From the IMG/VR virus record IMGVR_UViG_3300047320_000112, positions 1 to 30,355 of that record: 30,355 nt of DNA, one strand, 5' to 3'. This DNA is from a virus. Below, piece by piece: positions 4,961 through 30,113 of this stretch (within the stretch, counting starts at the first letter, position 1; every line of letters begins with the position of its first letter). A model generated the notes under the pieces. That model worked only from the letters and a program-made list of their open reading frames with translations. It was not told the DNA's origin and made no database searches. Both the position numbers and the translations under genes were made by a program.

Positions 4961-5926
4961 TTAAGCCGTGGTGTTGTCGAACACGCCGCCGGAAGCCTTT
5001 TCATTGCGGGCTTCAAGGGTATATTCGCTCAACATCTGAGCGCGCTCGCTGTCGCCAGTCTTGGCGAGAGGAACCGCGACCATCTTACGGCCATTCAAGT
5101 GAGCAACCGCCCACATGTCATCCTGGAGCACCAGAACGTCACGAGCGCGAACCTGACGGCTCGGCGCCACCTTGAGCACACCGAAGTCCGACTCGTACAC
5201 GTCAACCGACGCAACGATCTTCTTGGACTTGGCATCCTCGGTCGTGGTCGCACGGCCCGTGAAGGTCGAGAACTGCTGCTTGTTGAAGCCGCCGCACATG
5301 ATGATGTTAGGCTTGCCGCCGTTGGTCCACGCCGACTGGAGCACGGTCTTCAGGCGCGCTTCAGTGAACGCGATCTGCGTGCCATCAGTACGGGTGCCAG
5401 TGCCGTTCGCAGCAGCCGGATCGACGCCAGCGGTGCCGGCAGTCGCCTTGCTCGTGTTGGTCTTGATCCACGAGAGAACCGACGCGGTTTTACGAGCGGT
5501 CGCATCGTCGCCGGTCACTTTGGCTTGGTTGGTGCCGCAGAGAATGGCATCAATGTCGAGCTTGAGGGCCAGACCCTTGAGCATCTTCTGGTAGCCGAGT
5601 TCGTCGCCACGGCCAGCGTGTTCAACGGCCTGCTGTGTGCCAGTAACGCGAGCAACCTTGTCCGAGATCTGGCAGATGTTGCCGAGACGGACAGTAGGAG
5701 TTGCCGCGTCGGTCGTAGCGTCGTCACCTTCGAGCACTGCATTGCCGGTGTCGCGGGTATCGAGCGCCTGCGTCTGCCATTCGTGGTTGACGGCGGAGGA
5801 TTTCACCTTCTCGCACATGGTGAAGAACGGCGTATCGGTCGGATCGATGCGGAAGATTTCGTCCGACAGGTCTTCGCGGTTGCCGACCGCTTCGTAAGTG
5901 GCGAACGTGTTTGATGGGAGAGCCAT
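4961..5926 (-). CDS. Major capsid protein (SU10-like, HK97 fold expected)
   Basis: 321 aa. Starts MALPSNTFATYEAVGNREDL, then IFRIDPTDTPFFTMCEK, a typical opening of the SU10-type major capsid family (DUF5309-like), which adopts the HK97 fold. Other family-like stretches are NICQISDKVARVTGTQQAV (about 105-123) and, near the C-terminus, VLVLQDDMWAVAHLNGR. AAGGAT precedes the ATG at normal spacing. It follows the scaffold by 12 nt and is followed by an intrinsic terminator, the usual arrangement for a highly expressed coat gene. There is no N-terminal delta domain, in agreement with a separate scaffold gene. Confidence 0.85.
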   Translation of the reverse strand: MALPSNTFATYEAVGNREDLSDEIFRIDPTDTPFFTMCEKVKSSAVNHEWQTQALDTRDTGNAVLEGDDATTDAATPTVRLGNICQISDKVARVTGTQQAVEHAGRGDELGYQKMLKGLALKLDIDAILCGTNQAKVTGDDATARKTASVLSWIKTNTSKATAGTAGVDPAAANGTGTRTDGTQIAFTEARLKTVLQSAWTNGGKPNIIMCGGFNKQQFSTFTGRATTTEDAKSKKIVASVDVYESDFGVLKVAPSRQVRARDVLVLQDDMWAVAHLNGRKMVAVPLAKTGDSERAQMLSEYTLEARNEKASGGVFDNTTA

Positions 5927-5938
5927 AAGAATAGATCC

Positions 5939-7012
5939 TTAGCGTTGAGCCGCCTGCTTGGCCGCATAAAGGGCCGCAGCGTTGCGGACATTGGGGTTTT
6001 GGGTGAAACGTCGTGAGGCTTCTTGGACTGAGGCATCGATAGTCCCGCCTTTGGGCGGAGCGACGCCTGGCCGCTGAACTTGTGGGACTGGCTTGGGCAC
6101 GGCTTTCGGAGGAGCCTTCTGAAGCTGGTCGTACTTCACAGCCTTCATGATGATGTCCTGAAGACCAGCGTGGAACGGCGAGAACTTCTCACCATTCGCA
6201 ATGGCATTCAGATCACTGTCTGCGAAACCAGCAGACCGGAAGAGTTCGACCGCCGCAGTCTGAAACTGCTTCGATTTCTCCGGGTCTTTCAGTTCTGGAT
6301 GGAGTTCAAGTACCTTGGCATTTTCCTCGCTTTGGAACTTTGCCCATTGCGATTTTGATTCCTCGGTCTTGCGCTGCTCTGCCTGCTGCAGCTCATAGGC
6401 TGTCGCCTGCATCTTCTGCTGATAGGTGTCCCACTGAATCTTGCGGAACGGATCTTCAGCAGCCATCCTCTCCACGTCCGCCATTGTGCGGATGTCCGCA
6501 AATGGACTGGAGTTGTGAAGGGCCTCCATCAAGGCCGGTAGTTTGGCCTCGTACTCCTGTTGTGCCTTTGCTGCCCGTTCTAGCTCGGCCTGTGCGGCCT
6601 TGCGTTGTTCAGCAACCTCATTTTGGCTCTTACGAACCGCTTCACTGGCTTTCCTGTCCTGCTCCAGGAGAAACTCCTGGGTCACAGGGTCGAGTTTGGC
6701 CCAATGATCGGCTTGTTCAGATGCCCAAGACCTCGGGAGCTTGAGTGGCGGCTTTTCAGCCGGGTCAGCTTCCTGCGTCTCACCGGTAGCCTCAGTTTGA
6801 GGGGCGGCGCCAGCCTCTACGGCTGATTTCGTTTCCGTGGCTGCCGGGTTAGCAGCGCCAGCGGATGAATTGGTTTCCTCGCGCTTCATACGCTCAGCGT
6901 AGGCTGTTACAGCTCCACGAACTGAAAGCGGAGTATCGTTTGCAATGGCGACTTCAGCGGGAGCCGCAGGCGCGACTTCACCGCCAGCAACTACGCCAGC
7001 TTCTTCAGACAT
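5939..7012 (-). CDS. Scaffold protein for head assembly
   Basis: 357 aa. The N-terminal 100 residues are Ala/Glu/Pro-rich and disordered. The middle (about 100-240) is a long charged coiled coil (EVAEQRKAAQAELERAAKAQ and following). The C-terminus is basic and Pro-rich (PKAVPKPVPQVQRPGVAPPK), ending in a short helical segment. Composition, length and position directly before the capsid gene fit an internal scaffold that directs coat assembly and is then lost or cleaved. There is no visible protease domain. Confidence 0.82.
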   Translation of the reverse strand: MSEEAGVVAGGEVAPAAPAEVAIANDTPLSVRGAVTAYAERMKREETNSSAGAANPAATETKSAVEAGAAPQTEATGETQEADPAEKPPLKLPRSWASEQADHWAKLDPVTQEFLLEQDRKASEAVRKSQNEVAEQRKAAQAELERAAKAQQEYEAKLPALMEALHNSSPFADIRTMADVERMAAEDPFRKIQWDTYQQKMQATAYELQQAEQRKTEESKSQWAKFQSEENAKVLELHPELKDPEKSKQFQTAAVELFRSAGFADSDLNAIANGEKFSPFHAGLQDIIMKAVKYDQLQKAPPKAVPKPVPQVQRPGVAPPKGGTIDASVQEASRRFTQNPNVRNAAALYAAKQAAQR

Positions 7013-7027
7013 GAATTGTTCCTTGGT

Positions 7028-7327
7028 TTAGACGATACCGAGCAATTTCTTGCGCGCGGCCTCTCTGGCCAGATCGTCGAGTTGTTTCGCAGCGACACTC
7101 CCGTTCGCCACGATGGTGGATAGATGCGCCTTGACCTTGCCGACGACGTTCACAGCGATGAACAGTTTCTCCCTGCCCCGCTCGTCATCGATGTGAGTTT
7201 GCCGCCAGCGTTCGACATAGGCGGCTTCCAACGCATTGAACGCTTCGTTCAGTAGTTCATTGTCGAGCAGCGACTTGGCACGAGCGCCGCGCGACATGTC
7301 TTGGTTGGCTTTGATCTCGTCGATCAT
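7028..7327 (-). CDS. Small helical head-module protein, 99 aa
   Basis: 99 aa, all-helical pattern, starting MIDEIKANQDMSRGARAKSL and continuing with ELLNEAFNALEAAYVERWRQT. Small proteins of this kind commonly lie between portal and scaffold genes in podovirus-type modules; their role is not established. The ATG overlaps the preceding stop as ATGA. It could assist portal or scaffold assembly, which is speculation from position. Confidence 0.7.
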   Translation of the reverse strand: MIDEIKANQDMSRGARAKSLLDNELLNEAFNALEAAYVERWRQTHIDDERGREKLFIAVNVVGKVKAHLSTIVANGSVAAKQLDDLAREAARKKLLGIV

Positions 7328-27948: not shown

Positions 27949-28338
27949 GTGAGTAAAGAAAGCATTCCAACCGAAATCATTGAAGCTTTCGCCGGCAAGC
28001 CGACAATGCCAGTCGGGAAGCTGGCCACAGTCCTCGGTATGGACGTCAAAACCATCCGGAAGCATATCGCCAACGATATTCTCCCGGTGCATATTAAGGG
28101 GACCGGCCTTGTCCGGCGTCACTACGTCTGTACCCTTGCTGATGTTGCCGAATTTTTCCGCCGCACGGGTGAACCATGTCAGTCTTCAAGGTCCGAAAAT
28201 CCCCGTTCTATCAATTTGACTTCCAGATCCAAGGTCTACGCTTTTCCGGCTCAACGAAGTGCCGGAATGAACGTGACGCTAAGGACTACGAGAAAGCCCG
28301 CTTCGCGGAAGCCGAGCGGATCGTTGCCGACAACGTAG
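27949..28338 (+). CDS. Excisionase-like HTH protein
   Basis: 129 codons, GTG start. Residues 20-73 (TMPVGKLATVLGMDVKTIRK, HIANDILPVHIKGTGLVRRH, then YVCTLADVAEFFRRTG) form a winged HTH like those of MerR/excisionase proteins. The last ~54 codons overlap the integrase in another frame and look unnatural (Ser/Arg-rich), so the useful protein is the first ~75 residues. Position directly before int fits a recombination directionality factor; a plain transcription factor is the alternative. Confidence 0.65.
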   Translation: MSKESIPTEIIEAFAGKPTMPVGKLATVLGMDVKTIRKHIANDILPVHIKGTGLVRRHYVCTLADVAEFFRRTGEPCQSSRSENPRSINLTSRSKVYAFPAQRSAGMNVTLRTTRKPASRKPSGSLPTT

Positions 28339-29348
28339 CAACAGGCCGCAAGCCTCTCACGGTTGAGAAGGCTTGCACCCGCTGGTGGAACGAAGTCGGG
28401 TCACGCGGCAACGACCCTGATATTCAACGGGCGCTGAATTGGCTCAAAGGCCAGATCGGACCACAGGTGTATTTGCACGATATCACGGACGACATGGTTT
28501 CAAGAGCCGTGGAAGCCCGTAGACAATGCGTCATGAAGGCAGGCAAAGACGGGAATGGGAAGCAGCTTTATCGCCCCCTGAGCCCTCGCACGGTCAATAA
28601 AACCGTCGTCTCGCTGCTGAGCCGGGTCATGAACAAGGCGCGGGAGAACTGGACCGCATCAATCCCGAATCCGCCAGTCTGGAAAAAACACAAACTGCCG
28701 GAACGAAAGCGCCCAGTTCGGGAAATCACCGAAGCCGAGGACGCGGCAATCGATCAGGTGGAAAGCCGGGAGTATGCCGAGCTGCGAGAGTTCGCCCAGA
28801 TCATGGGATTGCGACGGCGGGAATTGTTGCTGACTTGGCCACAGGTCAACTTTGACAAGGCGACAATCAGCATCATCGGCAAGGGCGACAAGCCCGCTGT
28901 ACTCCCCTTGCCTCGACGCGCCTATGAGATCCTGTGGGGCCTGCGTGGCAATGACGACTGGTGGGTGTTCACCTTCATTGCTGAGCGCACGCGAACCTGC
29001 CCAAAGACCAAACGCGAGTTCGTGAAGGGCAAGCGATACCCGATGACCTACTACGGCATCGGAACGAACAGGCGCCGCAAGTGGCGTAAGGCTGGCGTGG
29101 ATGCGCGCTTGCACGATACGCGACATACGACGGGCATGCGGACACTGCGCGCCACGGGCAATCTAAAGCTCGTCCAGAAGCTGTTGAGGCACACTGACAT
29201 CAGCACCACCTCAAAGTTCTATACGGACTCGGACATGGAGGATATTCGCGCCGGTTTGGAGGCGACGCATCGTGCCACCGCTCGCTCCCCGAAAATATCC
29301 GAGGTGGAACCGGCGGCCAAGAAAGGCAAAGGCAATGACGGTCTATAA
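28176..29348 (+). CDS. int: Tyrosine integrase
   Basis: 390 aa tyrosine recombinase. An arm-binding N-terminus (MSVFKVRKSPFYQFDFQIQG...GSTK) is followed by a core-binding domain (about 60-180). The catalytic residues are Arg213 in GLRRRELLLTW, Lys in IIGKGDK (about 236-239), His313 and Arg316 in HDTRHTTGM, His339 in LLRHTDI and Tyr349 in TSKFYTD. All are intact. It would insert the phage at the tRNA-Arg gene found 0.7 kb downstream. The ATG lies within the reading frame of the HTH gene, so the two are translationally linked. Confidence 0.95.
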   Translation: MSVFKVRKSPFYQFDFQIQGLRFSGSTKCRNERDAKDYEKARFAEAERIVADNVATGRKPLTVEKACTRWWNEVGSRGNDPDIQRALNWLKGQIGPQVYLHDITDDMVSRAVEARRQCVMKAGKDGNGKQLYRPLSPRTVNKTVVSLLSRVMNKARENWTASIPNPPVWKKHKLPERKRPVREITEAEDAAIDQVESREYAELREFAQIMGLRRRELLLTWPQVNFDKATISIIGKGDKPAVLPLPRRAYEILWGLRGNDDWWVFTFIAERTRTCPKTKREFVKGKRYPMTYYGIGTNRRRKWRKAGVDARLHDTRHTTGMRTLRATGNLKLVQKLLRHTDISTTSKFYTDSDMEDIRAGLEATHRATARSPKISEVEPAAKKGKGNDGL

Positions 29349-30054
29349 ACCGAAGAAATCGAACTACTATTACTTCGACTTCTGGAGGGGCGGTAAGCGC
29401 TACTTCGGATCGACCAAGCGCGATGAACTGATCGAAGCCGAAAAGGTCGAGCAGGCGCACATTGCGAGAGCTGAACAGGAGGCAGAAGCCGCTTCAATTG
29501 CCGACACAGCGCCAGAGGCTATCAGCATCCTTCCGCGGCATGTGTTGCTCGTTCCCTTTAGAAAAGGCGCCAGATACTTTTTCTCGGTACCTGCCAGAAT
29601 GGCCAAAGCTGGTTGCCCTATCAAAAGCCAGTCGCTAGGGCTTGATTACGAGGCTGCGGTCGCCCGCGCCGAGAGCGTGCTTCTACCAGCGCTTGACCGG
29701 TGGACCGCTAGCCAGGTCGTCGGCCCTGAAGAGGCCTCGCTCAAGCTATCAACTGAGCCGGCAATTGGCGTCTATCTACTGATGCTTAAAGGCAAGGTCG
29801 TCTACGTTGGCACAAGCCGCACGATGCAGAGGCGAGTCGCCAACCATCGTACAAATGGTCGCCCGTTCGACGATGTATTTTATATTGCGGCTGATGAGAG
29901 TAAGCGCGCGAAGCTGGAGGCTGCACTCATTAAGTCAATCAGCCCGCCACAAAACAGAACACTCATCGGAGAGCGAGAGCCGTTACGGCCATCCCTAGAA
30001 AAAACCCCAGACCGCGACGGCGTAATTCAAGAAACCTCTGCGAGACAAGGGTAA
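29335..30054 (+). CDS. Integrase-N-terminus / GIY-YIG nuclease fusion
   Basis: 239 aa. Residues 1-28 (MTVYKPKKSNYYYFDFWRGG, ending GSTK) copy the arm-binding start of the neighbouring integrase. Residues ~68-123 (LLVPFRKGARYFFSVPARMA, SLGLDYEAAVARAESVLLPA) resemble the N-terminal segment of a different integrase type. Residues ~143-208 are a GIY-YIG nuclease: GVYLLMLKGKVVYVGTSR with Tyr147 and Tyr157-Val-Gly, Arg167, Glu195 in KLEAALIK and Asn207. It overlaps the integrase by 14 nt and ends 20 nt before the attachment site. It probably binds att DNA and nicks or cuts nearby. Confidence 0.8.
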   Translation: MTVYKPKKSNYYYFDFWRGGKRYFGSTKRDELIEAEKVEQAHIARAEQEAEAASIADTAPEAISILPRHVLLVPFRKGARYFFSVPARMAKAGCPIKSQSLGLDYEAAVARAESVLLPALDRWTASQVVGPEEASLKLSTEPAIGVYLLMLKGKVVYVGTSRTMQRRVANHRTNGRPFDDVFYIAADESKRAKLEAALIKSISPPQNRTLIGEREPLRPSLEKTPDRDGVIQETSARQG

Positions 30055-30074
30055 GTAGCGCTATGGCTCACGTC

Positions 30075-30113
30075 ATCGAAATCCGATGCTCTATCCAGCT
30101 GAGCTAGGAGCGC
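30075..30113 (-). tRNA. 5' half of tRNA-Arg(TCG), cut at the anticodon loop
   Basis: On the minus strand the acceptor strand GCGCTCC, the D arm GCTC-AGCTGGATA-GAGC and the anticodon 5' strand TCGGA with loop TTTCGAT are complete, giving anticodon TCG. The sequence then departs: GACGT instead of TCCGA, and no T arm follows. The break at the end of the anticodon loop marks the right attachment site of the prophage. The missing 3' half should lie beyond the left end of the window. Confidence 0.8.

Follow-up and report, generated by a model that had tools for sequence, protein, structure and literature searches.

A GIY-YIG nuclease with two integrase-type N-terminal domains beside a prophage attachment site: a candidate homing endonuclease of integration modules

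Several described nucleases owe their target choice to DNA-binding modules that are joined to the catalytic domain. ICP1 Odn (Gp88) is a nuclease that carries the RepA_N domain of a rival satellite and cuts the rival's origin at iterons (PMC8263062), and Odn-related proteins with a second RepA_N domain have also been reported (PMC10448857). The 239-aa protein considered here is encoded in a stretch of viral DNA of 30,355 nucleotides (IMG/VR record IMGVR_UViG_3300047320_000112, positions 1 to 30,355; hereafter the window). Like Odn, it combines a nuclease of the GIY-YIG superfamily with a DNA-binding domain borrowed from the recognition protein of a mobile element, with repeats as putative targets, and its second integrase domain parallels the second RepA_N domain of the Odn-related proteins. 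Unlike Odn, which relies on RepA_N and satellite replication origins, it bears integrase arm domains, and its gene lies inside an integration module. A further likeness is to the Seg family of GIY-YIG homing endonucleases in T4 and to T5orf172 homing genes (PMC1564403, PMC10448857), which also stand alone beside a presumed target, are sporadic and mobile, and have the GIY-YIG domain at one end and the DNA-binding modules at the other. The known free-standing enzymes carry NUMOD, HTH, CapR/DUF723 or RepA_N modules (PMC1564403, PMC10448857); neither integrase arm domains nor an int-att location was found among the homing nucleases in these two sources.

HNH-AP2 homing endonucleases, in the portion of PMC10448857 that treats them (citing Magnani 2004), contain the AP2 three-stranded DNA-binding fold, which is similar to that of integrase arm domains. 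As treated there, they differ from the present protein in having an HNH catalytic domain at the other end and no link to a phage integration module. The arm-binding domains of the lambda, HPI and P4-like integrases (1kjk, 2wcc, 3jtz, 3rmp) share the fold of its second domain (s2) but belong to full recombinases, whereas the 239-aa protein has neither a core-binding nor a catalytic recombinase domain. In addition, UYE95814 of Sinorhizobium phage NV1.1.1 has a GIY-YIG domain that is 38% identical, and its gene overlaps the end of an unrelated integrase gene; it differs in having an HTH in place of the integrase arm domains. The first-pass annotation of the window, made from the letters alone, knew of no described family with such an architecture, and no description of integrase arm domains fused to GIY-YIG or T5orf172 was found in the literature searched, an absence that proves nothing by itself. 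Both the parts and the principle were known before; the combination appears new.

Genomic setting and domain composition

The nuclease gene lies behind the integrase gene (int), and its stop codon is followed after 21 bp by a half tRNA gene that marks the attachment core (Table 1), so that the proximity to the attachment site noted in the first-pass annotation holds. No complete tRNA was detected at the attachment core of the window, and the same tRNA arm appears to be used at the window and at loci L009 and L013. This tRNA-Arg anticodon arm, TCGGA TTTCGAT TCCGA, is an inverted repeat (window 30067-30113, L009 7162-7215). The int-side flank is the 5' tRNA half in the window and the 3' half in L009 and L013, and the window and L009/L013 phages appear as if integrated in opposite orientations.

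Table 1. Positions of the features in and around the nuclease gene (window coordinates)
Feature	Position	Strand	Evidence or remark
Small HTH protein, tentatively excisionase-like, upstream of int	27949..28338	+	HTH_17 2.9e-5, below Pfam cut-off; PHROG excisionase 0.017
Tyrosine integrase (family A), 390 aa	28176..29348	+	PF00589 2.9e-16; PHROG_1 3.8e-32
Degenerate copy of arm-like motif, CTCCCCGAAAATATCCGAGG, int 3' end, weak	29285..29304	+	65/1000 shuffles reach the score
Chimeric nuclease gene, 239 aa, ATG start	29335..30054	+	14 bp overlap with int stop
Domain s1, residues 1-58, family-A integrase arm-binding-type N-terminus; three strands and a helix	29335..29508	+	Sequence similarity, predicted topology
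Domain s2, residues 65-123, family-B integrase arm-binding-type N-terminus	29527..29703	+	Sequence; lambda Int N-domain 1kjk Z 5.8
GIY-YIG catalytic domain, residues 141-207	29755..29955	+	GVY 145-147, YVG 157-159, R167, H171, E195, N207
C-terminal tail, residues 209-239, unconserved	29959..30051	+	DNA resembles integrase 3' end / attP arm of relatives
Tandem arm-like repeat, ATCCCTAGAAAAAACCCCAGA, putative arm-type sites	29991..30011	+	20/1000 shuffles; 86 bp to core
CTCACGTC adjoining core, common to window and L009	30067..30074	+	Alignment with L009
tRNA-Arg-like gene, 5' half, attachment-site junction; anticodon loop TTTCGAT	30075..30113	-	Read from sequence

The composite nature of the protein, read in the first-pass annotation as two integrase-type N-termini followed by a GIY-YIG nuclease, was borne out by sequence matches, a structural model and the catalytic residues. 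The model, built with AlphaFold2 on aligned window and locus sequences (pLDDT 80), consists of two three-stranded-sheet-plus-helix domains and then a GIY-YIG fold. Residues 1-48 match the N-terminus of the adjacent integrase with 44% identity (E 7e-8, one pairwise comparison), and also match the N-termini of phiLM21 and further integrases. The resemblance of the first domain (s1) to the adjacent integrase therefore stands, and reaches to about residue 48 rather than 28, but since phiLM21 and other integrases match too, it is a match to an integrase family and not closest to that integrase in particular. In a tree of s1, which with about 58 residues serves as a guide only, the two nuclease copies (from the window and locus L001) group together with a support of 0.97, apart from the window integrase. 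Recapture of s1 from the neighbouring integrase in each phage was rejected on account of this grouping. No structural relative was listed for s1 specifically by the fold search.

The second integrase-like segment of the first-pass annotation was likewise recovered. For residues 59-123 the match is to the N-termini of another tyrosine-recombinase family, from Rhizobiales, and the predicted s2 model superposes on the lambda-Int arm domain 1kjk (Z 5.8, 2.5 A over 49/49 residues; VIA-align) as well as on the HPI and P4-like arm-binding domains (VIA-align); in the fold search, s2 also matched the AP2 tandem 6sy0 (Z 4.1). The GIY-YIG domain placed at the end of the protein is complete, with an unconserved tail behind it: the tails of the window and L001 proteins are 22% identical, against 75% for the GIY-YIG part. 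Pfam GIY-YIG matches residues 145-200 (E 5e-4, slightly under the curated cut-off), the fold of the predicted model resembles UvrC 1yd6 (Z 6.4) and I-TevI 1ln0 (Z 5.7) over ~64 residues, and the GIY, YIG, Arg, His, Glu and Asn positions are invariant across three relatives. The protein thus combines the motif, catalytic Arg and Glu, C-terminal Asn and fold of the GIY-YIG superfamily. The structural Z values, though moderate, are in line with the independent sequence evidence.

No match was obtained in the 239-aa protein to the tyrosine-recombinase catalytic domain PF00589, to any HTH family or, over the cut-off, to NCBIfam. The catalytic domain is GIY-YIG instead of HNH, and the DNA-binding domains are of the integrase type rather than of the RepA_N type seen in Odn. 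As in free-standing homing endonucleases, nuclease and DNA-binding modules are held within one stand-alone ORF. PADLOC matches to UzuA (2.3e-5) and PDC-S14 centre on the GIY-YIG part. In BFVD, the model matched the viral protein A0A8S5SST6 (363 aa, named integrase; Foldseek E 0.04), which could be another integrase-nuclease mixture.

Putative arm-type sites in empty and occupied alleles

Most family-A integrase genes without a neighbouring nuclease carry tandem GTCCCRGA repeats with a period of 11-13 within 80 bp of the int stop codon (40-80 bp ahead of it), and these were labelled putative arm-type sites from position and repetition only. When a PWM trained exclusively on nuclease-less loci was scored on the last 150 nt of the nuclease genes, a repeat pair was found in the nuclease 3' end of both the window (20/1000 shuffles) and L001 (17/1000). 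No repeat was found in the L001 int end (309/1000 shuffles); in the window, the CTCCCCGAAAATATCCGAGG stretch aligns with the corresponding stretch of L009 (19/1000). Elsewhere in the window and L001 phages, chance pairs score equally high, so that the position of the repeats matters. Each single-locus repeat test stands at about p 0.02, and the weight comes from the agreement across loci and from alignment tests. The signal appeared only once relatives were used: a general repeat search around att yielded only chance-like repeats, a one-motif search gave chance-level numbers, and a test for tandem repeats that used no motif model gave no information on the window.

The distance from motif to core is 85 bp in L009 and 85 bp in L013, where the motif lies in int, and 86 bp in the window, where it lies in the nuclease gene. 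Furthermore, the tail of the window nuclease gene can be aligned to the 3' end of L009 int with z 7.4 (0/1000), a value that drops to 2.5 (17/1000) without CTCACGTC and the repeats, CTCACGTC supplying part of the signal. The last 54 nt of the L001 nuclease gene align with the 3' end of int in both L037 and L010 (0/1000 each) and do so in the same frame (RSRTDSRAAQRKAS vs ESRKKSRNDKRKAS); no such alignment with this tail was obtained for L001's own int end. From these alignments, the nuclease gene appears to have inserted within the int 3' end, immediately before the arm sites, and, judged from sequence, to have taken over the final part of int. Since the putative arm sites lie in int at nuclease-less loci and in the nuclease 3' end at both loci with the gene, empty and occupied alleles can be compared. 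As expected of homing, both states of one locus were found, with the window occupied and L009 and L013 empty.

A family-B arm site that would suit s2 was not found in the window nuclease tail (350/500) and is weak in the L001 nuclease tail (61/500). A family-B-like arm half-site, TCGTCAGAAT, at L052 7037 (minus) is the best of that 7-kb stretch and may be chance; the A-type repeat of the L001 nuclease tail, at 7053, is ~15 bp away. Among the family-B integrases themselves, L022, L023, L026, L038 and L015 show tandem TTGTCGGAAT, ~22 bp apart, over the stop codon beside a tRNA, which forms a second clear family of putative arm-like motifs.

Rarity, mobility and recurrence of the design

The first-pass annotation had proposed looking for the same three-part architecture beside int in other prophages, and it was found at L001. 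This locus, from another prophage record, encodes a protein with 62% identity over residues 1-208 and the same three parts, directly behind an integrase. Two doubts raised earlier are thereby settled: the sole full-length homologue keeps both integrase-like segments, and a local misassembly or recent frameshift is ruled out because L001 encodes the same parts. Identity between the two integrases is 35%, and a comparison of the 30-kb window with the 47-kb L001 relative matched only one more protein (29%) besides nuclease and integrase. As the two phages have a nuclease better conserved than int and almost nothing else in common, the mobility of the nuclease gene appears to be independent of the genes around it; this conclusion rests on one pair, as only two full-length members of this type (type 1) are known. 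Codon differences between the two copies amount to 0.62 at third, 0.30 at first and 0.29 at second positions, and this third-position excess points to purifying selection on the nuclease. Integrases 66-70% identical to that of the window occur without the nuclease at L007, L009 and L013. At L009 and L013 the tRNA core follows directly after int, and the L007 record stops at the int stop codon and is hence less informative. The type-1 protein is rare. No full-length copy was found in 397 Hyphomicrobiales genomes, L001 was the sole full-length relative in viral scans limited to short exact patterns, and a single-protein scan of genome contigs returned no relatives.

The same design has also been built from other parts. 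At L032, L069 and L128, int is followed by a gene joining an integrase-type N-terminus to T5orf172, and then by a tRNA. In L032, a family-B integrase gene overlaps by 4 bp a 178-aa ORF, with a tRNA-Arg 24 bp further; the ORF combines the N-terminus of a third integrase family (C) with T5orf172/MUG113 (1.7e-7). A central-domain match for family C in L056 is below cut-off. The L032 nuclease 3' end holds two family-B arm motifs, TTGTCGGAAC, at 5728 and 5741 (0/500), which are missing from the int end, and the putative arm sites have, on this sequence reading, moved in L032 too. The integrase-type domain of the nuclease (family C) is mismatched to its own integrase (family B); the structure model of this nuclease (pLDDT 49.5) is too poor for use. 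In L069, a family-D integrase precedes a family-D-like N-terminus with T5orf172 (MUG113 5.9e-10) and a tRNA-Glu, the integrase and nuclease N-termini being 41% identical over 46 residues (E 5e-4). L128 has an intact family-D integrase, a family-D-like N-terminus with a T5orf172-type domain (MUG113 1.5e-8) and a tRNA-Gly. Altogether, at four of the five nuclease loci a nuclease domain is of the same family as the local integrase, and the unrelated versions in other viruses suggest a recurring class of mobile or competitive nucleases directed against integration modules.

The L069 integrase is split over two overlapping frames on the minus strand (N-terminal 6124-6657, catalytic 5534-6310, overlap 6124-6310), which may be a frameshift, an error or programmed. 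At L021, positions 78-725 at the contig start encode a protein related over its full length to the HTH-GIY-YIG protein of NV1.1.1. A DNA-polymerase-like ORF lies farther along and no integrase is seen; members of the HTH-GIY-YIG family may also occur outside integration modules. No integrase-annotated neighbour was present, within the stretch read, for the GIY-YIG/T5orf172 matches in the Rhizobium phages RHph_I1_23 and RHph_I3_18, a Sphingomonas plasmid, or phages Clover and Pq0.

Homing and competing explanations

The protein is best read as a free-standing homing-type endonuclease specialised for prophage integration modules, whose arm domains find arm sites and which cuts int/attP lacking the nuclease, a reading to which we give slightly better than even credence. 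One or both integrase-derived N-terminal domains would dock on the arm-type sites of attP/int, and the GIY-YIG domain would cut neighbouring DNA, the int 3' end, in relatives without the gene. With the occupied copy as template for repair, the gene would end up between int and the arm sites of int. In the host allele the nuclease gene has taken the place of the int-side DNA next to the arm sites, which would spare this allele, and the arm sites would stay at the correct distance from the core, so that integration would still work. Recognition of arm sites gains indirect support from the family-A arm-like repeats inside the nuclease gene's own 3' end, and insertion anatomy together with independent mobility favours homing. 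Two observations count against it: no family-B site for s2 was found in the window tail, and the L032 domain comes from a family other than that of its own integrase.

The L032 mismatch fits better with the weightiest rival reading, an interference nuclease resembling Odn, in which the borrowed arm domains would destroy attP/int of competing family-A or family-B phages or integrative elements, serving exclusion and not selfish spread; a domain foreign to the own integrase is what would be expected with rivals as the target. Direct precedent exists in ICP1 Odn, a T5orf172 nuclease with a satellite's RepA_N (PMC8263062, PMC10448857), and the present protein bears domains of two integrase families, s2 matching integrases of other Rhizobiales elements and s1 its own integrase family. 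We nevertheless hold such a role to be unlikely, if far from negligible, because with an own-family domain at four of five loci self-recognition must be avoided, and because insertion exactly between int and the arm sites is homing anatomy that a weapon does not need. Homing better accounts for the insertion anatomy and for the own-family match at the remaining four loci, and both readings share one proposed biochemical activity. A broader version, which we regard as rather doubtful, holds that att-directed nucleases are recurrent and repeatedly re-invented, some of them bispecific: prophages would join GIY-YIG-superfamily nucleases to arm domains from a single integrase family or several, and would use them to cut integration modules in both related and rival elements; the nuclease genes would ride inside the module and host its arm sites.

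An accessory factor of the phage's own recombination, regulating integration or excision at arm sites or nicking att DNA, would suit a gene that lies on the attP arm, encodes Int-type domains and overlaps int, the 14-bp and 4-bp overlaps making translational coupling probable. It is judged improbable, since the nuclease is missing in close relatives whose int-att modules look complete (L009, L013), is better conserved than int and decoupled from it, and is replaced by unrelated versions in other phages; nothing was found in favour of the excision role that the first-pass annotation had also considered. The rarity of type 1, with no full-length member in the Hyphomicrobiales genomes and an activity that is predicted only, would suit a non-functional or neutral chimera, a nuclease joined by chance to captured integrase fragments. 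This is very improbable given that all catalytic residues are kept, that two diverged copies show a third-position excess and that one design was invented several times independently at one place. Equally little credence is given to the arm-like repeats in the nuclease tail being due to chance and the gene being a passenger (moron) beside att with an unrelated target: single repeat scores are modest, but the 85/85/86 bp spacing, the alignments between the nuclease tails and the 3' ends of int (z 7.4 and z 4.3) and the L032 case speak against it.

If the proposed mechanism is true, the integration modules of temperate phages would themselves be targets of homing or warfare, and arm-site specificity would be borrowed to aim a nuclease as Odn does with replication-initiator specificity. 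Cutting of int-attP would be expected in the empty arrangement only. The arm domains and arm motifs provide natural domain-site pairs for studies of recognition, and the mechanism, if true, would help account for the exchange of int-att modules between unrelated phages.
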